Assembly: GCA_910592005.1 (NCBI GenBank)
Contig: CAJVPP010001717.1
Location: 1 to 18,203 of the forward strand
DNA from: Funneliformis mosseae
Lineage: Eukaryota; Glomeromycota; Glomeromycetes; Glomerales; Glomeraceae
Length of the DNA: 18,203 nt
Direction of reading: 5' to 3'
A program made the translations under genes and the position numbers. The notes beneath the pieces were generated by a model. The model was not told the origin of the DNA, searched no databases, and saw only the letters and a list, made by a program, of their open reading frames with translations. Below are positions 1,115-18,000 of the stretch, in pieces (position 1 is the first letter of the stretch; every line of letters begins with the position of its first letter).

Positions 1115-2373
1115 ATTAAGTCATATAACATTACACAAATTTCCAAACGAGGAAATTAGATCTTTTAATAAAAATGGCTTCTATTGATTGCAATTACGTT
1201 ACACAAATATCCATAAATGGAATCTTATGTAACCGATTTTGAAACTTGAATTTTACTGGGGGACAAAATTTTCCTTTTTGAAAAATATGGAACGCTACAC
1301 TATTAATCATTTATTTATACGTTTATTCTACTATCTTGAAGTTTCAAATTTCAAACTATTTGCTTTAATAATTGCGGAAATTAAAAACAAAGTCTAAATT
1401 TTTACTCGGGATTATGCAATCTAGCTATACCAGATCATATGATATATTTTTTTATAACTAGCATGTCATGTTGCGACATATGAGCATTATTTACCTTTCA
1501 GCGAGTAATATATTACAAACATTTTATTGTATTTCCATCTCTTAAAGAGACCGCGTTCTTGTGCTAAGACCGGTAATTAACTTGTATGGCGCAGAAAGGC
1601 CATATAATTTCACCCACAACCATGAGAAACTTTGATGTCATGCATATCTTTGAAGGGGTAACATTGGAGTGTCTTCTTGTCTATATTTCGCTCTCAAAAC
1701 GAGGTTATTCGTAAACATATTTACCATCAGGCGATTTACCTGTCTCTTACCGGGAACAATTGCTGATATAAGAATAATTTCGTCAAAGAAATCCATCTCT
1801 TTTGAATTTCTTATGATAAATGTATGTAATAGTTATTTAATAACTTGGTTCTTAACTAATAAAGCCATCTTCTCCAAGATTTCATAGACTGCAAATAACG
1901 TCGAACTTTTCTGATAATCTGTCAACGCTCGACCTTGATCAATTATGAAAACAAGAAGAGAATGATTAATTTTTATGGAATGTTGATCGATAAATGAAAT
2001 GATTTTTTAGTACTTGACCTATTTTTAGACCAAGATAACCTTATAAAGCTAGACAAGGTATTTAAACTGAATAATTTGCTTTATAAGGAAAGACTTCAAA
2101 TGTGCTTGATGTATGTATGAGCAGATTCATTTTGTAATGAAAATTTAAGCGAAAAAATTTTTTGTAACTTATTTATGGAAGCAGGCAAGTTCCAAAAAAT
2201 CATTCGGATTCTACTGAATCTGATACCATGTGTCTTTTTACAACAATTTTACCAAGCTGTATTTATTGTATTGAAATATATTTTTTTTAAAAAAAAATAA
2301 AAAATTAATTAGGAATATTTTTTTATCACTCAATAAATTTAAATTTTTTTTTTTTTTTTTTTGGATCTTTGAC

Positions 2374-2383
2374 ATCACGTGAT
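2374..2383. promoter_or_regulatory. ATCACGTGAT palindrome with E-box core
   Basis: A 10-bp palindrome centred on CACGTG, the core bound by bHLH factors in fungi. The identical decamer recurs at 10822-10831. No gene start lies close by here, so a regulatory role is only a possibility; it may equally be part of a dispersed repeat. Confidence 0.3.
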
Positions 2384-2550
2384 TCGAACAAAAACAAAAA
2401 TATTGTAGGTCCGACGAGGTGTAAATTAAAAATAATGTTTGAAATTTGACATTTAAATAAATAAATAGTAAAAGAAATAAAAAAAAAATATGGTTAAAAA
2501 ACAAATAACCCTCCATTAATTGGAATTTACCCAATATTCTAATCGTACTA

Positions 2551-2578
2551 CCATTGTATAACGATAATATTACAATGG
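2551..2578. repeat. 8-bp hairpin CCATTGTA / TACAATGG
   Basis: Perfect arms at 2551-2558 and 2571-2578 flank a 12-nt AT-rich loop. No associated gene or function is visible. Confidence 0.35.
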
Positions 2579-3010
2579 ATACTAATTACTAATTCCTTAT
2601 TTATAAATGGCAAGAATAAACAAATTTTAAATTGATTGTAATATTGTTATTTCAAAAAATAAACATGATATTAGTGGTAACATTACTTCTACATTATGCA
2701 TAAGTTTTTTTTTACACGATATATTGCTAAATTTTTTTGCGCAAAACTAGGTGAAAAAACCCTTTAAAATCACCACATGAACTAGCAAAATGAAATATTG
2801 TTTAATTTTATTAAAATATACGATAATTTATAATATAATTCAAACAATTTGATTAATGAAGCGGAGAAGGCATCATGTATTAAATGTTTGTGATAAAAGT
2901 TATCGAAATAATTTGTATTCGAATACATTCTTTTATTTGCTTACATAATAAGCAAATCTTTTCCTAACCTAAATATAGTTAGATCAATAATGAAAAAAGG
3001 TTTTATCCGC

Positions 3011-3037
3011 CGCTTCAGAGCGAAGCGATCGAACGAT
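3011..3037. repeat. GC-rich double hairpin with GCGAAGCG motif
   Basis: CGCTTC (3011-3016) pairs with GAAGCG (3022-3027), followed directly by ATCGAACGAT (3028-3037), itself a small palindrome. The GCGAAGC core recurs in inverted form near 3104 (GCTTCGC) and in the Helitron 3' end at 14788-14799. This suggests a transposon-derived scrap upstream of the kinase gene. Confidence 0.4.
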
Positions 3038-3120
3038 TCTTTTTTTTTTTAAAAAAATCTTTTTGCTTTGCTTTCCTTTAGATTCCTCTTCATATCGTAT
3101 TGCTTCGCAAGTATAAAGGT

Positions 3121-3285
3121 GAGTCAGTTTTTTTTTAGGAGCAGAGTTCGAAATTGCAACCTTTATCGAGTTGGCGAGTACTTAATGTATGACAATGCAT
3201 AAACAGTGATCTTCTCAATAAAGTAACGACAAATAAAATTTAATTAATTTAATTGAAAAACTCTTTTTCTTTTATATTTACAAAA
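3121..3285 (+). promoter_or_regulatory. Presumed promoter and 5' leader of the kinase gene
   Basis: This stretch lies directly before the kinase start codon. It is less AT-extreme than the far spacer and ends in a pyrimidine-rich tract (3261-3277) followed by the purine-rich start context CAAAAATG. No defined TATA element or operator can be singled out. The assignment rests on position only. Confidence 0.3.
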
Positions 3286-3462
3286 ATGTTCAATAGTTTA
3301 ATAAAAAGGCTTAAAAATAGTAGTAAAAAAGCCGAAGATGGTGAGCGAATTGACCCAAAGAAATATTTTTGACGGACTTGAGACGATTTATAAATATTTA
3401 TCTTATAACCTTAGAACCAGCTTCGGATACTCCTGATGCTCCTACATTTAAAGAATTAAATA
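3286..3462 (+). CDS. Kinase gene exons 1 and 2 (N-terminal leader)
   Basis: Exon 1 (3286-3340) starts at the first ATG and encodes a basic leader, MFNSLIKRLKNSSKKAED. The first intron is 3341-3414 (GTGAGC donor, TTAG acceptor, 74 nt, phase 1). Exon 2 (3415-3462) encodes EPASDTPDAPTFKELN, Pro/Asp/Thr-rich and probably disordered. A second acceptor six bases on (CCAG, ends 3420) would drop two residues in frame. The exon 2 donor is taken as GTAATG at 3463, the only nearby GT that leaves phase 1 and so fits the downstream array; reading through instead hits TAA at 3498-3500. The start and intron 1 look solid; the exon 2 donor is inferred from phase. Confidence 0.55.
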
Positions 3463-6400
3463 GTAATGAATATTTATTTATTTGCTATGTTAAACGATAA
3501 TTCCTTAATAATTAAGATAATTTTTTTTTAAAAAAAAAATAAAAATAAATAATGCATTGGTTGTTGATGTACTATATAGAATGTAAGTCATATCGATATA
3601 TCCTTTTAACATGTATAATTAAAATTTAACTAAACTTTTTATTTAAAAACTAATGATTAATAATACTAGGGAGTAAGTTATTATTATTCTTTATATTGTA
3701 ATTTAACTTAATTAATTTATTTAAAAAAATTTTTAAATGTTTAACAACATTTTAGTCGGTAAGTGATTATATTAGTTATCTATTTTAATTAATAATTATC
3801 TCAACTAAATTTTATTTACATTATATCCAGATCGTAAGTTAATTTTTGCTTCTTAATTCAATTATTATAATTTTTACTAAAATTTAAGTAAACAATATTA
3901 TATTGATAACATTAACAGAAAGTAAGTAACATATATTAGTTGATTATATAAGTTTTGACGAATTTTATTGAATCAAATTAATTTGTATTATTTATTTAAA
4001 ATTTTATATTGTAATTTAGATGGTAAGTTATTTTTATTGATTATCAGTATTTAATTATACTTGTTACTGTAATTTAAAGTTAACTAAATTTTTTATTTAA
4101 AAAAATAATTAATAATATAATAGATGGTAAAATTATTTTTATTAATTATCAGTTTTTAACTAAACTTGTTATTATAATTTAAAAACAACTAAATTTTTAT
4201 TTAAAAATATAAATTTTATTAGGAAGTAAGTTATTTTTATTGATTATCAATATTTAATTATATTTATTACTATAATTTAAAACTAATTAAATTTTTTATT
4301 TAAAATAATAATTATAATATAATAGATGGTAAGTTATTTTTATTAATTATCAGTATTTGATTATACTTGTTATTTCAATTTAAAGTCAATTAAATTTTTA
4401 TTTAAAATAATAAATTTTATTAGCAAGTAAGTTATTTTTATTGATTATGGTATTTAATTATACTTATTAATGTAATTTAAAGTCAATTAAATTTTTTATA
4501 ATAATTTAGATTGTAAGTTATTTTTATTGATTATTAGTATTTAATTATACTTATTGTTGTAATTTAAAGTCAATTAAATTTTTTATTTAAAAAAATAAAT
4601 TTTATTAGGGAGTAAGTTATTTTTATTAATTATCAGTATTTAATTATACTTGTTATTGTAATTTTAAAGCCAACTAAATTTTTTATAATAATTTAGATTG
4701 TAAGTTATTTTTATTGATTATCAGCATTCAATATACTTGTTATTATAATTTAAAGTTAACTAAATTTATTATTTAAAAATATAAATTTTATTAGGGGGTA
4801 AGTTATTTTTATTAATATCAGTATTTAATTATACTTGTTACTGTAATTTAAAGTTAACTTAATTTTTTGTTTAAAAAAAAATAATTAATATAATAGATGG
4901 TAAGTTATTTTTATAATTATTAGTATTTAATTATACTTGTTATTATAATTTAAAATCGATTAAATTTTTATAATAATTTAGATTGTAAGTTATTTTTATT
5001 GATTATCAGTATTTAATTATACTGTTACTGTAATTTAAAATCAACTAAATTTTTTATTTAAAAAATATATTTTATTAGTGAGTAAGTTATCTTTATTGAT
5101 TATCAGTATTTAATTATATTTGCTGCTGTAACCAACTAAATTTTTTATTTAAAAAAATAAATTTTATTAGTGAGTAAGTTATATTTATTGATTATTAGTA
5201 TTTAATTATACTTGTTATTGTAATTTAAAGTCAACTAAATTTTTTATTTAAATAAATAATTAATAATATAATAGATTGTATGTTATTTTTATTTATTATT
5301 AATATTTAATTATACTTGTTACTATAATTCAAAATCAATTAAATTTTTTATTTAAAAAATAAATTTTATTAGTTGGTAAATTATTTTTATTAATTATCAG
5401 CATTTAATTATACTTATTATTGTAATTTTAAGTCAACTAAATTTTTTATTTAAAAAATAATAATATAATAGATTGTATGTTATTTTTATTTATTATTATA
5501 CTTGTTACTATAATTCAAAATTAATTAAATTTTTTATTTAAAAAAATTAATTTATAGTTGGTAAGTTACTTTTATTATTATTAATAACATATATATAATT
5601 TAATCAAAATTAAATTAATAATATAAAATATTATAATTATATATTTAATGATATATATTAATTAAGTAAGTATTGTATTTTTTAATATTTTAAATAATAA
5701 TAAAATAATAATTATAATATTAATACTATAAAATTATTTAGAAAAAAAAGGAATTTGTTCAAATTGTAATAAAAATTATACTGGATTTAATTGGTGTAAA
5801 CAATGCAATTCTAAATTATTTCAAAAGGATTTTTCTAATTGGACTAGTAAAAATAAATTTATTGATGAATTTATTCAAAATATTCAAATAAATGCTCAAA
5901 ATAAAAAGCAATTATTAGAATGGATTCCTTATAATAAATTTAAAAATATTGAATATTTTGACAAAGGGGGATTTAGTATTATATATAAGGCAACTTGGAC
6001 TGATGGATTTATTAAATATTATTCATATAAAGAGAAAAAATGGATTAGAAATGGTATAATTAATGTAATTCTTAAAAGTTTTGATAATTCATCAAATCTA
6101 AATGAGGAATTTTTAAATGAGGTATAAATTAATAATTATATTTAAATTTTAAATTATATTTTTTAAATTAATTTATTTTTATTTTAGTGGAAACTTCATT
6201 ATAGTTGTTATAGTCAATTAAAAAAATATTCAAATGAAAATCTTATTCAATTATATGGATTTACTCAAGATTCAAATACTTTAGATTATATAGTAATAAT
6301 AAAATATGCAAAAAATATGAATTTAAGAAAAAATTTATCAAATATAGTTAAGGATAAATGGATTATTAAATTATTACAATTAAATAATATTATTAGTGGA

Positions 6401-7167
6401 CTTGAAGAAATACATCAAAAGAATCTTATTCATTGTGATTTTCATCATGGTAATATTTTAAATATTAGAAGTAAGGTTTTATCTGTTAGTGATTTAGGAT
6501 TATGTAAATCTATAAATTATTATTAAACATCTAAAAAAAACGAAATTTATGGTGTTTTATCATTTGTAGCTCCTGAAGTTTTAAAAGGTCAACCTTATAC
6601 TTTAGCTAGTGATATATATAGTTTTTCTATGATTATGTGGGAATTTATATCAGAAGTTACTCCATTTAATAATGAAACTCATGATTTTCAACTTAGTTTA
6701 GATATTTGTAAAGGTAAACGTCCTAAAATTATTAAAAATGCTCCTAAATGTTATATAAATTTAATGGAAAAATGTTGGGATATAAATATATTAAAAAGGC
6801 CAACTTCATTAAAAATTAAAGAGATTATTAATATTTGGATTAATAATATTAAAAGTAAAGATTTTAATACAGAATCAAAAGATGATATTATAGATTTTTA
6901 TAAAGCAGATAAAGCATTAAAACAAAATCAAGATAATAAATTAATTGATATGAAAGATCATTTACAAGTATTTCATACAAGTCGTTTACTTAATTTTACT
7001 GAAAGATTAAATGAAATTTTAGACCATGAAATTGGAAGTTTTGAAATTAGTCAAAGTATTGGTAATTATTATAATATATACATATATAATTTATTAATTT
7101 TTTTAATTTAATATATATATTTAATTTAATATTAATAGAAGCTTTAAATATTATAAATAATGAATAA
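3286..7167 (+). CDS. Glomeromycotan-type protein kinase gene, 27 predicted exons, one in-frame stop
   Basis: Predicted Ser/Thr/Tyr-kinase-like protein of 483 residues. Exons: 3286-3340, 3415-3462, 22 three-base microexons (3580-5560), 5742-6121, 6188-7061 and 7139-7167. The coding total of 1,452 nt is a multiple of three. Visible parts: basic N-terminus (1-18); zinc ribbon C62xxC65-x9-C75xxC78; glycine loop KGGFSIIY (131-138); VILK lysine K168; catalytic HCDFHHGN with D267 and N272; SDLG 284-287 in place of DFG; APE 311-313; D325 of SDIYSF. This is the layout of the large kinase families of arbuscular mycorrhizal fungi, whose substrates are mostly unknown. A TAA at 6524-6526 (codon 296) interrupts the activation segment, yet the frame is open and conserved on both sides. 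It is therefore a young pseudogene, a sequence error, or a tolerated stop. All introns are phase 1 except 6122-6187, which is phase 0. Confidence 0.75.
3463..5741 (+). repeat. Tandem array of introns separated by 22 three-base microexons
   Basis: Each unit reads AG, exactly three bases, then a GT donor. Microexon starts: 3580, 3670, 3756, 3831, 3919, 4020, 4124, 4223, 4326, 4424, 4510, 4609, 4697, 4795, 4897, 4982, 5079, 5171, 5275, 5373, 5472 and 5558. Eighteen donors are GTAAGT; the rest are GTAAAA (4127), GTATGT (5278, 5475) and GTAAAT (5376). Introns run 72-101 nt and often carry a CTAA or ATTAA branch-like motif 30-50 nt before the acceptor. The opening intron is 117 nt and the closing one 181 nt. 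Sixteen introns (4023-5557) are near copies of each other; the first units are diverged but keep the splice signals and 3-nt spacing. Spliced in phase 1 they encode residues 35-57 without a stop. The alternative is a satellite inside one long intron. Confidence 0.7.
5742..6121 (+). CDS. Kinase gene zinc-ribbon and N-lobe exon
   Basis: This exon has no ATG and so is easily missed, but it is open from the acceptor at 5741 to the donor at 6122. It encodes residues 58-183: the CxxC-x9-CxxC zinc ribbon (C62, C65, C75, C78), a linker with the family-typical WTSKNKFIDEFIQ and EWIPYNKFKNIEYF, the glycine loop, and the invariant lysine in VILK (K168). The frame starts with two bases completing a codon, so the upstream intron must be phase 1, matching every microexon junction. 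The following intron, 6122-6187 (GTATAA to TTAG, 66 nt), is phase 0. Confidence 0.85.
6188..7061 (+). CDS. Kinase gene catalytic C-lobe exon, with in-frame TAA
   Basis: Encodes residues 184-474. Catalytic loop HCDFHHGN (D267, N272), metal-binding SDLG (D285), APE (311-313), SDIYSFSMIMWEF (helix F) and the closing RPTSLKIKEI region are all present. TAA at 6524-6526 falls between SINYY and TSKKNEIYGV, where relatives continue, and no GT-AG pair could splice it out. Apart from that stop the frame is intact to 7061. The tail after the kinase domain (about 370-474) is charged and ends FTERLNEILDHEIGSFEIS. The donor GTAATT at 7062 leaves phase 1. Confidence 0.8.
7139..7167 (+). CDS. Kinase gene last exon
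   Basis: After the 77-nt intron 7062-7138 (GTAATT to ATAG), the frame continues in phase as EALNIINNE and ends at TAA 7165-7167. Without splicing, the frame reads into low-complexity Tyr/Ile sequence and stops at 7109-7111. A GTAAGT directly follows the stop (7168) with an ATAG acceptor at 7238, suggesting an intron in the 3' UTR. Confidence 0.5.
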
Positions 7168-7866: not shown

Positions 7867-8150
7867 ATTGGTATATATCAGAAATTGGCTAAAAATCAGC
7901 TAAAATTCAATCTATCTTATTTATAGCCAATTGGCATACTTATTATTAATTGGTATACATCAAAAATCAGCTAAAATTTGACCTATATTATTTATAACTG
8001 ATTGATATTCAATTTGCATCTAATTAGTATATATTAAAAATCAGTTAAAATTTAACCTATTTTATTTATAATTGATTGACATCTGATTTATATTTGATTG
8101 ATAATACATTAAAAATCAATTAAAATATCTTAAAATAAAATAAAATTTAA
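7867..8150. repeat. Four degenerate copies of a ~74-bp tandem repeat
   Basis: Copies start near 7867, 7949, 8023 and 8097 with ATTGGTAT-, ATTGGTAT-, ATTAGTAT- and ATTGATA-like heads. Each continues with an AAAAATCAGCTAAAAT core and an ACCTATnTTATTTATA core. Spacing is 82, 74 and 74 nt. There is no coding potential; it is a diverged minisatellite. Confidence 0.55.
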
Positions 8151-10934: not shown

Positions 10935-13900
10935 TTGAAACATGAATATTGTACTCATATTATTAATGCCAAAAAGGTTATTTGTATTTGTGGTAAAATA
11001 ATTAAACTTAATAGGCGTTGGGAAGAGGAGTTTGATTCTGATATATATGATAGTATAGATAAGGATGATTTACTTCAAGTAGATAAAATAGATAATGATG
11101 ATAATGATATTTCAACCCCTCCTCTTATTACAAATAATAATAAAAAACGCATACATCAATCATAAAAGCATTAAATATACTGCGGACTTCAGTCAGAACA
11201 AATATCTTTATATATTAAATATACTTTAGCACAATTTGGAGGTTCTAGACGTATTGAGATTATAGTATGTGAATTATTTCCAAGGTTAGTTGGTAAAAAA
11301 TTCTCACGCAAAAAGCTAAATCATGAAGAAAAAAGAAAATTAAATTGAACATTGTATGCTGAATCTACATGGCAAATAGATAGAACAAGTGAGTACTTTT
11401 GAATTTTTGAAATCTAGTTATTATTTTTATATCTGATATCTTATATTTTTGTATTATTTTTTAAATAATAGGTAATGCAGTTCGTTCTAAAATTTGTACC
11501 AGCTTTGCTGAATATAGCAATAGTATTTATAATGAATGTTGCTATATAAGATCTGATAAAAGACTATATACAATTATTAGAAGGAAAGTTCCATTGCCTG
11601 AAAATATTAAATTTACTCCTAAATATTTTTGGGAGGATAATGCGTTAAAAATCATCTCCAGAATTTTTATCTTCGTGACATATGGAATTTACTTAATGAT
11701 AACAGTGAATGTAATAAAAATAATGTATGGATTTCCTTAGCTGATAAAGCACTTAAAGGTGTATTTAATCACAAACTGATTTTTATTAGATTATGTGAAG
11801 TTATAAATGATGCAGCAGAACGAAAAATTAAAAATAAGGGTAAACAAAACATTAAATATTCTGAAGATTTTACAAGTTTTTTAGTTATTTTAGAAGGTTT
11901 TAGTTCTAGAGCCTTGGATTTATTTCGGCAAAATCTAGAAGAACGATGTATTCAATCTATCAGGTGAATTTTATATAATTTTTGAATGGATTTTTTATTG
12001 ATGATTATTAAATTTTTGTTTTCAATTTAGATATTTGTGATCTAACAATGAGGATCGTCTTACTAATCCTGATTTATGCTATGAAAATGTTGCAAGATTT
12101 AAACGCCTAATTGATGCCATCCAGTATAATAGTTCTATAGCAGCTATGACGAATAATACTAAATTGAAGTCACATTTACGATATTCACCACAACTTGGAT
12201 GCATTGTTAGCTCAATTTTACCTTATAATCAAACTAAAGTTAACAACTACAGTGACATTTCAAACATTATCAACTGCATTAAAAATCATAATGCAATTGC
12301 TAAAGATGTTCGTGCATATATTCTTTAAGTAAGTATAATTAAATGTAATGTATATTGATATATAAGTTTAAATACTGTTTAAATTAATATTTAAAATTAC
12401 AATCTATTTAAAGTACCATTGCCTAAGTTTCCTCCAGTTGTAATTGCTTTAATTCCGAATACATTAAAAGATACTGCTGATGACATTTCAAAATTGCATA
12501 AAAAATTAATTTAGGAAATAGCACTACACCTTCAACTTCATATATTGACTCTTGGATCAGATGGGGCAATTCTTGAATTTCAAGCACAAGAGCAAATAAT
12601 TGTAACTCAAACATCAGAGCAGCTTTCTATTCATGATGATAATTTAAATATTCATTTTAGTTGTCTGATCTTTGATAGTGTTGGTCCTATCATTTGCATA
12701 CAAGATCCAAAACATACCAAAAAGACTGCTCGTAATGCTGTAATATCTGGTGCATATCTGTTAACATTTGGAACAACTTCAGCACAATATTCACATTTTC
12801 TTAATCTTATAAGGTGACATAATTCAATTATGTATAAAAATGATGTAATTAAAATAGATCGCCAGGATGATGGCGCTGCATACAGAACCTTTTGCTCTGT
12901 GAACTTAAGACAATGTTTGACGCAAAATTATGATATGCAACCCGAAATGAATGGTTTTTTTGTGTATCTATTTGTAATAGGTAAATAATTGTTTTTAATA
13001 CATAATTTTATATATTATTTTATTAAATATACTTCTCCATTTAGGTGAACTCATAGATAGTTTTCTTAATCATTATATTGCTCCAATTGAAAGAATCAGA
13101 ATGGCGATGATGGGGTTCTTTTTTTTACATCTTTGGCAATTTCATATAAAAACACTTGCACATAAATATTCTGATTTTATCAATATTAATCAAAATTTTT
13201 TGGCTTCCCAAACTTTTTCAATACTTACTTCTCTTAGTTAATCAATTGTATTATTAGTTAAAGCCCATCGTGAATATTATCCACAAGTACCTTTAATTCC
13301 TTGGATGTATGGCACTGAACCTTGCGAACATTTTTTTGGTGTAGCAAGACAAATTAATTCTGATTTTGACTTTGCAGAAATTATTCAAATGCTTCCAAAA
13401 ATATCCCAATACACAAAGGCGCTTAGAAATAAAAACTTAAGCTTCGAAAAAGACAAATCTGTTTGTGAAGGTATTTATAATAAAAAAAAAGAAAAACTTT
13501 AAAATTCATGCAATTGATAATACTAATTAAAATTATTTGCAATTATTTTAGGCTACCACTTTGATTATAATTCAGGCTCTTTAGAAGAATTAACTATGCA
13601 AAAATTTTGTCTTTGGCTAACAGATGAGCAAATATTACAAACATTTCACCATTCACGACAATTGGCAAGTGAACTTACCAAATTTCTTAGGATGATTCAG
13701 CCAGCAAACTTACCTATTAGTATTGATCTATTCATAATCTTAATTGATGCTAATAATGAAGATATTTCAATGTATACTAATAATACAAATAATGAAAATG
13801 AAATATCTGAAGAATCTGAAATTAATTTATCGACAGCTATTGATAAAGCATCTACTGAAGTATTTAGAAACAATGAGAACTTAGATGAAGATGAATCTAA

Positions 13901-14780
13901 AATCGAAGGAATTTTTAATGATGGATGCTCTCAAATTCGATTACTTAATAAAAAAACAGATACTATATCAGTTTTGAATTATGGTGATAGTGGTAAGTTT
14001 ATTATATTGAATAACGATGACATTTTATTTGTTTTCAAAATATTTATTAATATTATTTCTTTAATTAATAGTGAATAATGAATTCAAGTATATTGTAAAT
14101 GACAAGTTAAATTTGGAATCTCTTATCAATCAAAGAAAGCTGCATGATGCATATTGTTCAAAACCTCTTAAAAGAAAATTCAAACCTGTAGGATCAAGTT
14201 CGTCTCGTTCAAATAATGAACTTTCTATTCAACAAATAAAGCAAGTCACTTTGTAGCCTACTTTACAAAAAATGAAAATCCAGAACAGCGGTTTGTTACA
14301 CAGCGTGAAAAAAGATAGAAGGATAATAGGAAAAATCTGGCTTTTACACTTACACGATTGCATGCAGATGAATTAGAAAATCAAAACAAAAAAAAGTATC
14401 AAAGAAGAAAAAAGCTCATATAAGCATGATTCAAAGTATGTTTTTTTCCATCTTTCTATGCATAAAAAGAGTAAAATCAATATTAACTTTATGCTATTTT
14501 AGTTCCAAATATTGAAGATGCTAACATAACACCCGAATTTCCATTAAAGAAGGGACATTACGTATTTGTAAGATTTGGCAATAAAATGTGTGTGGGACGA
14601 GTGATTTCAATTTATTTTGATGCATATGGCAAGCATTGTTATACAGACGAAGCAATTAAAAATATTAATGATATTTCTTATATTTCATTACATGTGTACA
14701 TTCCTATTCATTTTGATATTTTCAGTGATTTAGTTAAGGAAGAATGTAATATTTTGACGTATCATATACCATCTAACTTA
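10935..14780 (+). pseudogene. Decayed member of a large Glomeromycotan repeated family, possibly P-element/THAP9-like transposase
   Basis: Predicted exons, joined by GT-AG introns: 10935-11388, 11472-11963, 12031-12328, 12414-12980, 13045-13470, 13552-13992, 14072-14435 and 14503-14780. The N-terminus has a Cys/His cluster (CTHIINAKKVICICGK), then an acidic linker, QFGGSRRIE, YAESTWQIDR, LGSDGAILEF, DPKHTKKTARN, RQDDGAAYR, CEHFFGVARQINSDFDF, an acidic region and a final block with FVRFGNKMCVGRV and DISYISLHVYIPIH. I recall many near relatives in Rhizophagus-type genomes. The D..H..K..RN and E..FG..RQ motifs resemble P-element/THAP9 transposases, but that link is tentative. Decay: TTG instead of ATG at the start; stops at 11163, 11172, 11346, 12038, 12326, 12512, 12815, 13239, 14316, 14421 and 14427; frameshifts near 11647 (one A lost), 12328 and 14240. 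The 3' end is cut by the Helitron. Confidence 0.75.
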
Positions 14781-14784
14781 TTAG

Positions 14785-15040
14785 TCCGAAGCGAAGCGAA
14801 AGACTTTTACATACTAGCCACATATTACACAAGGTATCCCGTTATCCGCCCACTCGCAGCTTGAGCTGATCGTAATTGGTTGTACTGTTACATCCTGTCT
14901 AAATAAAGTAATTATCCTTGCACCATAAAACAAACAAAATAAATAAAAATAAAACAAAAAAAAATTACGCCAAATCGTTTTTATTTATGACTACTATATT
15001 TGTAAACAAACAAAAAATGCGTGAAAACTTTATTATTTTT
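14785..15040 (-). other. Helitron 3' non-coding tail
   Basis: Between the helicase C-terminus and the CTAA end there is no coding sequence. On the minus strand it runs from an A/T-rich part (about 15030-14920) to a mixed-composition end containing CAGCTCAAGCTG (a small hairpin, about 14866) and the GCTTCGCTTCGG tract. It probably carries the transposition terminator. Confidence 0.45.
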
Positions 15041-18000
15041 TCTCACGATAACAAAGTAGATGCTCTTTTTCGACCTTCCTTTCTTACAGCCTTCTGCAAG
15101 TCTTTATACACTGGAGCCTCTCAAATGAGAAATAGTTGAAGCAGATATCGTTAAGTGAACGAGCTCGAAAAATTGCAACAAACGAAAGACCCGCTGCAAA
15201 CTCTTTGTTTCCAAGATCTATTTTAGTCTTTTGTAGGGTGAGTCACTGACTCTTATGCACTGTGATTGCCCAAGCAAGATATATTGATACCTGAAGCTGA
15301 GAACATTGCGTTCCAGATTTACTTTCCCAAATGTGTTTAATAGGTACGATCAGAATGACATTGACTCCCTCGGTTGTTGCGATAGTAGGTCCCTCAAATT
15401 GGTCAAAACTGATGAAAACTGCTGTAGAAAGTGAAGGTGGGCCCTGCTCCTCATATATAATGTCTTGTATTGTACCCATTGAGCCGTTGACTAACCCACA
15501 CTCAGTCTATAAGTTGGCTTTTAACATGACGCGACAACCCTTCGCCAGTTACAAACGAGCCTCAAGACCTTTCGCTACATCCGAATCAGCCTTTTTAGCC
15601 TTTCGACCTCCGGAATGTGACGCAAGGATTTCAGCTATTGGCCTGTTCAACGAGACGAGCATCTCGATATTAACTCCGTCTACATCAGCCCATTTCATTA
15701 GTATGAATACGGCATCTGAAAATCGATCTTGCTCTATTCTATTGAAATTATTTTCAAAGCGTGTGCAGAGTTTTTTCCAATCTTCTAATGTGCATTCTCC
15801 ATCTCGTAGCCTCAAGAGTAACTCTCTGAAGCCCTGTTGCTTTTCCGAATTACCTGATTGCCTTTGAACGACATCAAGCTTATATACCTCTCTGAAATGT
15901 TTGTATGCTGCGATGCCGTCATTTGAAATAATATCGTGTGTTATGTTGTTAGCATACATAGGCATGTCACATACAGGAGGAAGTTGCCCGAAATCGCCAA
16001 ACATTATGATGGATCTTCTGCCAAAAGGTTTGTTCGTGTATTCAGGGAATGCTTGTCGCAACCAAATGTCAATTAATTTGAGCATTCGACGTCCTACCAT
16101 ACTTTTTTCATCGATGATAAGGTATATAACATTTTGTAATCATTCTTGTAATTGTTTTAATTGCTTATTGTCTAATTCAAGATTCTTGGTATTACATAAA
16201 GGTATAGAAAGCGTCGAGTGAATAGTTGCACCATTGATATTGAAAGCTGCGACTTCCGTAGGTGCGATTACAAGAACTGGAGGTTTTGATCCACTTCCTT
16301 CTGTCACTCGAAGTCGCTCATGAATTACTCCAATGAGGTAAGATTTACCTGTTCCCGCTGTTCCTATTATTATAATTCTTAAAGGTTCGACTTGATTGCC
16401 TCTGAGTATGTCATTGTAGTGTGATTCTATTCGTTTGAAAACCTTTTTTTGATTTTCATTTAGGCTCTGATTATCAATCGAACTGTACACCTTTTCACTA
16501 GCATTATTCCTATTATTCGAAGCTAGATGTACGAAGTTGCGAGCATTTATTATGTCAAAATTAGAATAGTGTTGTTGATAGTCATTAATCCAGTCATGGT
16601 TTCGATCCATATCTCGAGATCCTAGATCAGACGAACCAACTATCCTTGTGTTTGGCCCCATCTCAGCGAGTCGCATCCAATCGTAACGAAATTCATCCTC
16701 TTCGTCGTATTCAATCTCTTCATCATCACTTTCATCATCGCTTTCTTTATCACTGATTTCATCTTCTTTATCTACATGGTTTTCAAGCATATCAACTGGA
16801 TCATTATTGATCGTATCAAGATGATAACTATAAAGAGTTGACCAAGGGACATTGTTATCGTTTAGTTGTTGTAGATTTTGATGCAGAACATGAAAGAGGA
16901 CCTTCATGCGACAGAACTCCTTCCACTGTTGTCCATTGCGCAAAGGTGAAGGTTGTGGCCATATTCGTACGATATTTTCCTTCTTGATTTTTTTCTAATG
17001 ACCATTGACGTTTTTATATGTTTGATATAGCATAAACAATGAGATTTCTTCAAGCTCATTAGGCCTATTCCAATATTTTTGGAGAGGTGATTGTGTCATA
17101 CATCCTACGTCTTTGATTGTGGTGAAGTCTTGTCCAACTCCTCCCTACCTGTACCACGAATCCACCTTGCCGATTTTATGCTAAGATTTAAGGAAACAAA
17201 TGTATGACTTGAGTGATAAAGCGGAAGGCCAAGAAGAAGATGGCTGGTTTCTTGAGCAGACATATCTCGTTCTGCAACGCTGCTGAGCAAAAGTTTTTGA
17301 ATTGATGTAAGTGAAAGATCATCAGGATTACTAATATTAAGGATGTTATTAAATATTTCCGAAAACGCCATTGACCGAGGTTCTGACTTGTTTGCATATT
17401 TAGATATATATTGCAAGGCCACGTGAATGCTAAAGACTGGCTTGAGATCGACATTAGCATGCTAGCCTTGCAATTGGAGTCGATTGTGTGGGTTGATGTA
17501 TGGGTCATTTCTCGCCGTTATGAGTTCGGGTTGCCTGTGATTGTCTTCGCGTATGAATGTAAGATCATTATGATCCTTGGGATACCTGAATCTGCACGTT
17601 TGCTGACTCGTTCTTTTATTTATACGAATACAATATGATGGACTACACTGCGTGTGACGTTGTAATTTGTTGATTAATTTGACATAATCCTGTAAACCGT
17701 CGTCGATTTTATCGCTACATTTTTGACAGGGGTGTTGCTTCAGAATTGCTGCGTTGATTTCTGGATTAATTGTGGTAACTATTGAATCAATATATCTTAT
17801 TACATTGGGCATCTCACTTTTTTGCATTTCCTTCCAATCGATTATTAGTGCATCCCGTATTTTTCCGATCCTGTGCACATGTACGCTCCTACGATGCTGC
17901 CACTTGAACCTGTACCACCAATCAACTAGGTTCTATCGTGATATAAGCACATCCCGAAAGAAGGTCTCGAATCGTTTATTGAAAAACCATGTGGCTATAT

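Follow-up and report, generated by a model that had tools for sequence, protein, structure and literature searches.

The DNA analysed here, called the window, is a stretch of 18,203 nt from Funneliformis mosseae (contig CAJVPP010001717.1). It contains a predicted protein kinase gene in which an array of splice-site modules, each made of an acceptor AG, three bases and a donor GT (AG-NNN-GT), separates the second predicted exon from an exon with a CxxC...CxxC zinc-ribbon-like motif (zinc exon). As judged from the genomic sequence, each of these modules is very probably a real exon of exactly one codon, which would be spliced in order into the N-terminal segment of the kinase. The evidence consists of the constant three-base spacing, the recurrence of such arrays in the genome and the rarity of stop codons where the triplets are joined in order.

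Twenty-two modules follow one another in the window. The first-pass annotation, which saw only this sequence, had described exact three-base spacing and 18 GTAAGT donors, and our pattern count agrees; the remaining donors are GTAAAA, GTATGT (twice) and GTAAAT. When the gap in AG-N{k}-GTAAGT was varied from 0 to 12 within 3463-5741, 18 sites were found at k = 3 and none at any other k. The intron spacing of 72-101 nt given in that annotation holds between the 22 modules and fails for the first intron, which is 117 nt long. The stretch between the 22nd triplet and the zinc exon had been taken as a single last intron, but a 23rd module, recognised by paralog comparison, lies inside it (AG 5665-5666, triplet TAA, donor GTATTG). 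A module occupies this place in 12 of 19 other loci with a readable zinc exon start; its triplet is TAA in 11 and TTA in one (L037), and its donor is GTATTA, GTATTT or GTAATA. The GTAAGT at 5666 was also considered as a dead module and rejected, because the paralogs show AG-TAA-GTATTG. At 3 nt, the putative internal exons, each flanked by a 3' and a 5' splice site, have the size of microexons, for which the upper limit is set at 15 nt or at 51 nt. A known RNA family was rejected as an explanation, since Rfam gave no match in the window at gathering scores.

Arrays of modules across the genome

The first-pass annotation had confined the phenomenon to one kinase gene, whereas the genome-wide pattern reveals a family of arrays. 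The genome surveyed comprises 82.0 Mb in 4154 contigs. TTAG-N{k}-GTAAGTTATTTT occurred at 310 sites with k = 3 (reversed control, 0), at 6 sites with k = 0-2 summed (control, 2) and at 55 sites with k = 4-34 summed (control, 26), which makes the 3-nt spacing about 175 times commoner than the mean of spacings 4-34 (310 versus 55 over 31 spacings). Exact ATTAG-NNN-GTAAGTTATTTTTATT was present at 116 sites and at none when read backwards. With the gap free at 0-12, exactly three bases were found at every place listed, about half of the 199 counted. TTAG-NNN-GTAAGTTATTTTTATT matched 4 stretches in a 257-Gb prokaryote collection and 4 in a viral collection; chance or a simple repeat was rejected on the gap test and these two counts.

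The spacing also bears on recursive splicing. Ratchet points have an AG joined directly to a GT, leaving an exon of zero length. If the modules were such sites, they would help to excise a single large intron in steps, and no triplet would be kept. The AG does lie near the GT and the steps are of intron size, but three bases stand in between, they avoid in-order stops (see below), and the genome holds 6 sites at k = 0-2 against 310 at k = 3. We give this explanation next to no likelihood.

We studied 20 regions fetched by the pattern, 8 fetched by kinase paralogy and the window, a non-random choice of 29; two of them (L041 and L050) gave no module run and were left out of the 27 loci analysed. 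Modules were called by a position matrix that is blind to the triplet; its training set was the strict modules found in the window and in the 20 regions fetched first. This parsed 506 modules across the 27 loci, with 3 to 46 triplets per locus when incomplete arrays are counted. At least 10 modules were present in 21 of the 27 loci, the window among them. The longest gap-free run had 30 modules (L037), and the most modules in one locus were 46 in L035, which is broken, and 43 in L036. Of 508 modules parsed in the loci under study, 136 match the 310-site pattern, which would put the genome total at the order of a thousand modules, a rough estimate from loci that were not randomly drawn.

Most arrays precede the same kind of gene. 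The zinc exon itself has at least 154 matches in the genome. In a test of introner-like scatter, limited to the array- or paralog-bearing regions that were fetched, a zinc-ribbon kinase exon resembling that of the window lay on the same strand at most 1 kb downstream of the array in 19 of the 27 loci, some of these exons being fragmentary, and in two loci this exon lay farther downstream (3.7 kb in L045 and 6.3 kb in L042). One array, in L032 (contig C269, oriented 2309-3322), lies upstream of a Sel1-repeat frame (PF08238, E 1.1e-73), so the array is not bound to a single gene family; another, in L038, precedes a different kinase (PF07714). In both, a phase-1 acceptor is available on inspection, other acceptors being possible. 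No gene was assigned to the four remaining loci, which are L043, whose array ends close to a contig edge, L031, L047 and L048.

Stop codons at the triplet junctions

In phase 1, the codon formed at each junction consists of the third base of one triplet and the first two bases of the next. Among phase-1 neighbours in all 27 loci, 7 of 445 such codons were stops against 26.8 expected, and none of 2000 within-locus shuffles gave so low a count. Reversing the triplet order gave 33/445 (26.9 expected). Joining triplets at greater distance gave 23/384 at lag 2 (22.9 expected), 18/327 at lag 3 (19.5), 20/286 at lag 4 (16.7) and 16/256 at lag 5 (14.8). An earlier count on the window and the 20 regions fetched first had given 7 stops at 315 junctions in phase 1 (20.2 by shuffling) and 73 of 315 in phase 2 (65.5), with 11 of 359 in phase 0. 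When the loci were divided by the state of the zinc exon, a grouping that, like the exclusion of L035 and L048, was decided after the first stop counts, the 12 loci with an open zinc exon had no stops in phase 1 (0/258; 12.9 expected) and 74/258 in phase 2 (66.7 expected), and the other loci had 7/187 in phase 1 (13.9 expected).

Two hold-out sets were available. The loci that were added once the effect had come to light had 0/130 stops against 6.1 expected (0.0002 of 5000 shuffles as low). The second set was made of 14 short stretches out of 30, of which 12 gave runs, the other 16 overlapping or sharing contigs already used; it had 1/92 stops in phase 1 against 4.3 expected (0.041 of 3000 shuffles as low). 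Codon-position composition, scored with base frequencies by codon position from the L037 kinase and with L035 and L048 omitted, gave -3.61 nats per codon in phase 1 and -4.10 and -4.08 in the other phases. Stop depletion confined to ordered phase-1 neighbour junctions makes it most likely that all the triplets are used in sequence, none being regularly skipped, and that they are translated in phase 1. The depletion, the hold-outs and the composition thus speak for the proposal of the first-pass annotation that consecutive one-codon exons are joined in phase 1.

The same counts bear on combinatorial splicing, in which the triplets would be optional exons and varying subsets of them would yield many isoforms. 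As all triplets are of 3 nt and in phase 1, any subset keeps the frame. However, the codons created by skipping are not depleted of stops, either at lags 2 and 3 in the main set or in the second hold-out (4/75 against 3.6 at lag 2 and 3/58 against 2.9 at lag 3), so regular skipping would often yield a stop. We rejected combinatorial skipping on these grounds and consider it very improbable.

A minisatellite within one intron of about 2.3 kb, with splice-like sites that are decoys or remnants and no triplet in the mRNA, would agree with the TRF result, which reports 4016-5581 as a tandem repeat of period 98 bp and 16.3 copies. It would also agree with the fact that exon 2 joined straight to the zinc exon is in frame. 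The triplets do link these two exons in frame, as the first-pass annotation had argued, but the join without the array is equally in frame, and the in-frame link is by itself no proof. A minisatellite does not account for a stop depletion confined to ordered phase-1 junctions, for donors that are mostly GTAAGT or for a 3-nt spacing that is constant though intron lengths vary. In addition, the ordinary intron of these kinases is 64-70 nt long (eight loci including the window). We rate the minisatellite a shade below combinatorial splicing in probability.

Several points weigh against the reading of the modules as one-codon exons spliced in order. Taken alone, the window array had 0/21 stops against 0.8 expected, which is not significant, and the comparison of open with other zinc exons was a grouping made after the fact. 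Junction stops do occur: the main set has three in L035, three in L048 and one in L044, all loci that lack an intact zinc exon (it is fragmentary, interrupted or was not found), and the single one of the second hold-out sits in L022 (contig C1135), whose zinc exon contains TGA and TAG. The kinase frame of the window is interrupted at 6524-6526, and many paralogs are interrupted too. Since omission of the array keeps the frame, some transcripts may skip it. Finally, the splicing of the array is a prediction from genomic DNA.

If the one-codon exons are spliced in order, the array would encode an N-terminal kinase segment of about 10 to 45 residues. The predicted segment is rich in N, D, Y, E, I and W and lies between a PVSD...KELN-like exon and the zinc ribbon. 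The GTAAGT consensus allows pairing with U1 through intronic bases alone. The array donors, mostly GTAAGT after any triplet, would pair with U1 in this way, as free triplets would require; the introns, mostly of 60-109 nt, would thus supply strong donors independent of exonic bases, so the triplet would be free to vary. The ordinary intron of these kinases, 64-70 nt long where both ends were found (66 nt in the window, and seven other loci), starts with GT in 16 of 18 loci and with GTAT in 15 of 18, and exonic GAG or AAG precedes its donor in 16 of 18. The array introns would probably be removed in order, as is suggested by the size of the exons and by what PMC4674806 discusses for exons of 1 nt and 9 nt. 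Because all triplets have three bases and lie in phase 1, a unit gained or lost would add or remove a single residue and leave the reading frame intact. We guess that the segment serves as a fast-changing linker or in recognition.

Introns, triplets and described systems

The ends of the arrays are conserved and the middle triplets are variable. In ten loci chosen for starting with GGA-TTG/TCG/TTA, which fixes positions 0 and 1 by choice, triplet identity after GGA was 0.47 at position 2, 0.78 at position 3 and 0.79 at position 4; from position 5 on it was 0.32-0.37, the level of random triplets. The residues W-I-D/V/E-E/Q-N were read in 7 of the ten, with L043 one residue off and a module apparently missed or absent in L040 and L058.

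The array introns are much more alike than the triplets. Their median mismatch was 0.115 per aligned site (41205 prefiltered pairs) and their similarity counting gaps was 0.77, figures that are flattered by gapped alignment of AT-rich sequence. In 121 independent intron pairs that were 93-100% identical (gaps uncounted), the flanking triplets differed at 0.55-0.62 per site, and random triplet pairs at 0.62. Among blocks of look-alike introns, intron and inner triplet mismatch were 0.078 and 0.618 at similarity 0.85 (30 longest of 288 blocks), 0.070 and 0.556 at 0.88 (30 of 42), and 0.058 and 0.417 at 0.91 (4 blocks; 10/24 bases), the closest blocks sharing somewhat more triplet bases. Simple duplication followed by neutral drift was rejected, as inner triplet mismatch is far above intron mismatch in these blocks. 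This difference indicates that the triplets evolve faster than the introns or that the introns are homogenised; selection-driven triplet change, intron homogenisation or spread of introns without codons may be responsible.

Neighbouring triplets were identical in 34 of 445 cases against 35.4 expected by shuffling, which speaks against a 3-bp target-site duplication or a single-unit duplication that keeps the triplet. Block duplication does occur, since one duplicated block in L037 keeps 9 of 12 inner triplet bases. Distances between modules are mostly 60-109 nt, with a peak at 80-99 nt, and a small second group of 170-199 nt (13 of about 470) looks as if splice-site loss had fused two introns and dropped one codon. 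No stops were found at the 30 junctions across intervals of more than 115 nt (L035 and L048 omitted), a number too small to be informative alone.

One-codon exons of today could have arisen by intron invasion, with introner-like copies inserted between the codons of an older exon. Such an origin would be compatible with the reading preferred here and would fit introns that are alike beside triplets that are almost uncorrelated, as in the 121 pairs above. It fits less well with arrays of 3 to 46 triplets, unlike one shared ancestral exon, with paralog triplets whose likeness is at the random level at the sixth position and beyond, with the invisibility of a target-site duplication among neighbouring triplets and with the L037 block. 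We also know of no mechanism that inserts an intron every 3 nt. This origin seems unlikely to us, yet it is clearly less improbable than the other alternatives weighed above.

Introner-like elements of fungi (PMC4457414) and introners (PMC9860276) are families of near-identical introns in one genome, and the array introns likewise form many near-identical introns in one genome. What sets the array introns apart is their three-base packing, a place that in the regions fetched is mostly upstream of a single kinase family, and flanking triplets that show no sign of duplication. The micro-exon genes (MEGs) of Schistosoma mansoni are 35 genes with exons of 3-81 bp, introns of up to 5 kbp and secreted products (PMC10526429). 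Many short symmetric exons per gene are common to both systems. The F. mosseae arrays, in contrast, form gap-free runs of up to 30 modules, lack long introns and have look-alike introns of mostly 60-109 nt; each of their putative exons is exactly one codon, whereas the lengths of MEG exons vary, and their genes encode kinases or, at one locus, a protein with Sel1 repeats.

The ultra-short exons of the following examples are single or paired, unlike the rows of tens found here. They include a 1-nt exon in Arabidopsis APC11, for which successive removal of the two flanking introns is discussed (PMC4674806), a 3-bp exon in Drosophila homothorax (PMC7392893), and plant microexons of 1-15 nt, with two neighbouring ones of 5 and 12 nt in a rice gene and conserved GTRAGT donors at the 1-nt VPS55 exon (PMC8831610), a donor type to which the array donors also belong. 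Among fungi, Xlr2 of Trichoderma virens has one regulated microexon, reported with the remark that functional microexons had previously been undescribed in filamentous fungi (PMC11121469); a microexon in a fungus is common to both cases, but Xlr2 has only one. The stwintrons of Hypoxylaceae are look-alike introns that need two splicing reactions (PMC8469720); they are nested, whereas the introns here stand one codon apart. No description of rows of one-codon exons was found in the open-licence papers searched. What marks them out is a unit of one intron per codon that recurs throughout a gene family; a more cautious label would be an extreme variant of micro-exon genes.

A wider proposal, which we consider more probable than not, is that the N-terminal segment of this large kinase family is built at one intron per amino acid, the one-codon exons numbering on the order of a thousand and some arrays reaching forty units or more. 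In this proposal the introns are under concerted change and the codons are near-random save for the lack of stops at ordered junctions; the array would be a device for codon-by-codon diversification, requiring ten to forty 3-nt joins without skipping. If true, one-codon exons would be a recurrent building block of a gene family and not rare accidents. The arrays would then probe the minimum size of an exon, the fidelity of the spliceosome over tens of ordered 3-nt exons and whether exon definition by exonic sequence is dispensable. They would also offer a new route to gain or loss of single residues without a frameshift, with the intron as the unit of protein length. Since gene finders and read aligners miss 3-nt exons, such arrays may hide in other genomes.

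The window gene and its surroundings

The features of the gene are collected in the table below. The kinase matches PF07714 and PF00069. Among the best 120 of 940 protein hits, the named relatives belong to Rhizophagus species, Glomus cerebriforme and Funneliformis geosporum, all of them Glomeromycotina; the nearest by identity are two F. geosporum proteins (64/75% over 45/38% of the query), and the top one by score is a Rhizophagus irregularis kinase (44% over 72%). The deposited products of the two F. geosporum relatives start inside the kinase domain, which may point to arrays of this kind that were missed there.

A PVSD...KELN-like peptide was found upstream of the first module in 7 of 7 loci inspected. 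In tblastn the exon-2 peptide had E below 0.01 in L033, L052 and L058 only. This peptide, PVSDAPDAPTLKEL, is duplicated: it occurs twice in one frame in L058 (2497-2586) and in two separate exon-like stretches in L033 (5183-5396).

The zinc exon owes its name to its motif, a Pfam search of this exon giving no match. Phase-1 AGs lie 14 nt and 5 nt before its first Cys codon in the window, which places the start of the exon at 5742 or 5751; in 18 of 20 loci (L041, which has no array run, among the 20) a phase-1 acceptor stands 5 nt upstream of this codon. Many of the closest zinc-exon paralogs have internal stops, although those that lie close to where a match begins may belong to an intron. The zinc-ribbon kinase subfamily seems to contain many broken copies beside intact ones.

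The window copy itself is probably broken, in view of the in-frame stop in its kinase, with intact copies elsewhere in the genome. The spliced frame (exons, triplets, zinc exon and kinase exon from 6188) runs for 293-296 residues and then meets TAA at 6524-6526; the range reflects the two candidate acceptors (5742 and 5751) and the choice of 22 or 23 triplets. The first-pass annotation had given a spliced total of 1,452 nt, a multiple of three, and overlooked this TAA. A sense codon stands at its position in 5 of 5 paralogs checked (L033, L034, L037, L040 and L044), of which the L037 copy has an open kinase frame. It is likely that the window copy recently became a pseudogene, that it codes for a truncated kinase or that its sequence contains an error, and 6527-7111 is probably untranslated in it.

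Table. Coordinates of the predicted kinase gene and its array in the window.
Feature	Position	Strand	Basis
Predicted exon 1 (MFNSLIKRLKNSSKKAED), ends in phase 1, donor GTGAGC	3286..3340	+	sequence, spliced model
Predicted exon 2, 48 nt, phase 1-1, peptide (E)PASDTPDAPTFKELN	3415..3462	+	spliced model, paralog loci
Whole array, single codons alternating with introns of 72-117 nt	3463..5741	+	sequence
Putative one-codon exon 1, AAT	3580..3582	+	spliced model
Putative one-codon exon 2, GGA, anchor W	3670..3672	+	spliced model
Putative one-codon exon 3, TCG, anchor I	3756..3758	+	spliced model
Putative one-codon exon 4, ATC, anchor D	3831..3833	+	spliced model
Putative one-codon exon 5, AAA, anchor Q	3919..3921	+	spliced model
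Putative one-codon exon 6, ATG, anchor N	4020..4022	+	spliced model
Putative one-codon exon 7, ATG	4124..4126	+	spliced model
Putative one-codon exon 8, GAA	4223..4225	+	spliced model
Putative one-codon exon 9, ATG	4326..4328	+	spliced model
Putative one-codon exon 10, CAA	4424..4426	+	spliced model
Putative one-codon exon 11, ATT	4510..4512	+	spliced model
Putative one-codon exon 12, GGA	4609..4611	+	spliced model
Putative one-codon exon 13, ATT	4697..4699	+	spliced model
Putative one-codon exon 14, GGG	4795..4797	+	spliced model
Putative one-codon exon 15, ATG	4897..4899	+	spliced model
Putative one-codon exon 16, ATT	4982..4984	+	spliced model
Putative one-codon exon 17, TGA, no stop in phase 1	5079..5081	+	spliced model
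Putative one-codon exon 18, TGA, no stop in phase 1	5171..5173	+	spliced model
Putative one-codon exon 19, ATT	5275..5277	+	spliced model
Putative one-codon exon 20, TTG	5373..5375	+	spliced model
Putative one-codon exon 21, ATT	5472..5474	+	spliced model
Putative one-codon exon 22, TTG	5558..5560	+	spliced model
Putative one-codon exon 23, TAA, no stop in phase 1	5667..5669	+	AG-TAA-GTATTG and paralog comparison
CxxC...CxxC zinc-ribbon-like exon	5742..6121	+	motif; acceptor at 5742 or 5751
Kinase exon to in-frame TAA 6524-6526	6188..6526	+	spliced model, paralog comparison
Open frame past the stop, still matching the kinase C-lobe (PF07714, PF00069)	6527..7111	+	Pfam

Other features lie downstream of the kinase. 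A second tandem repeat of period 74 spans 7890-8126 and contains none of the module patterns tested. On the plus strand, 11641-14864 holds four open frames of 100-183 aa, three of which were tried in Pfam and had no match. A PIF1-like helicase (PF05970) is encoded on the minus strand at 15549-16994, split over two adjacent open frames, with further minus-strand frames beyond it to 17932; we presume that the stretch 15549-17932 is perhaps a Helitron-type element.

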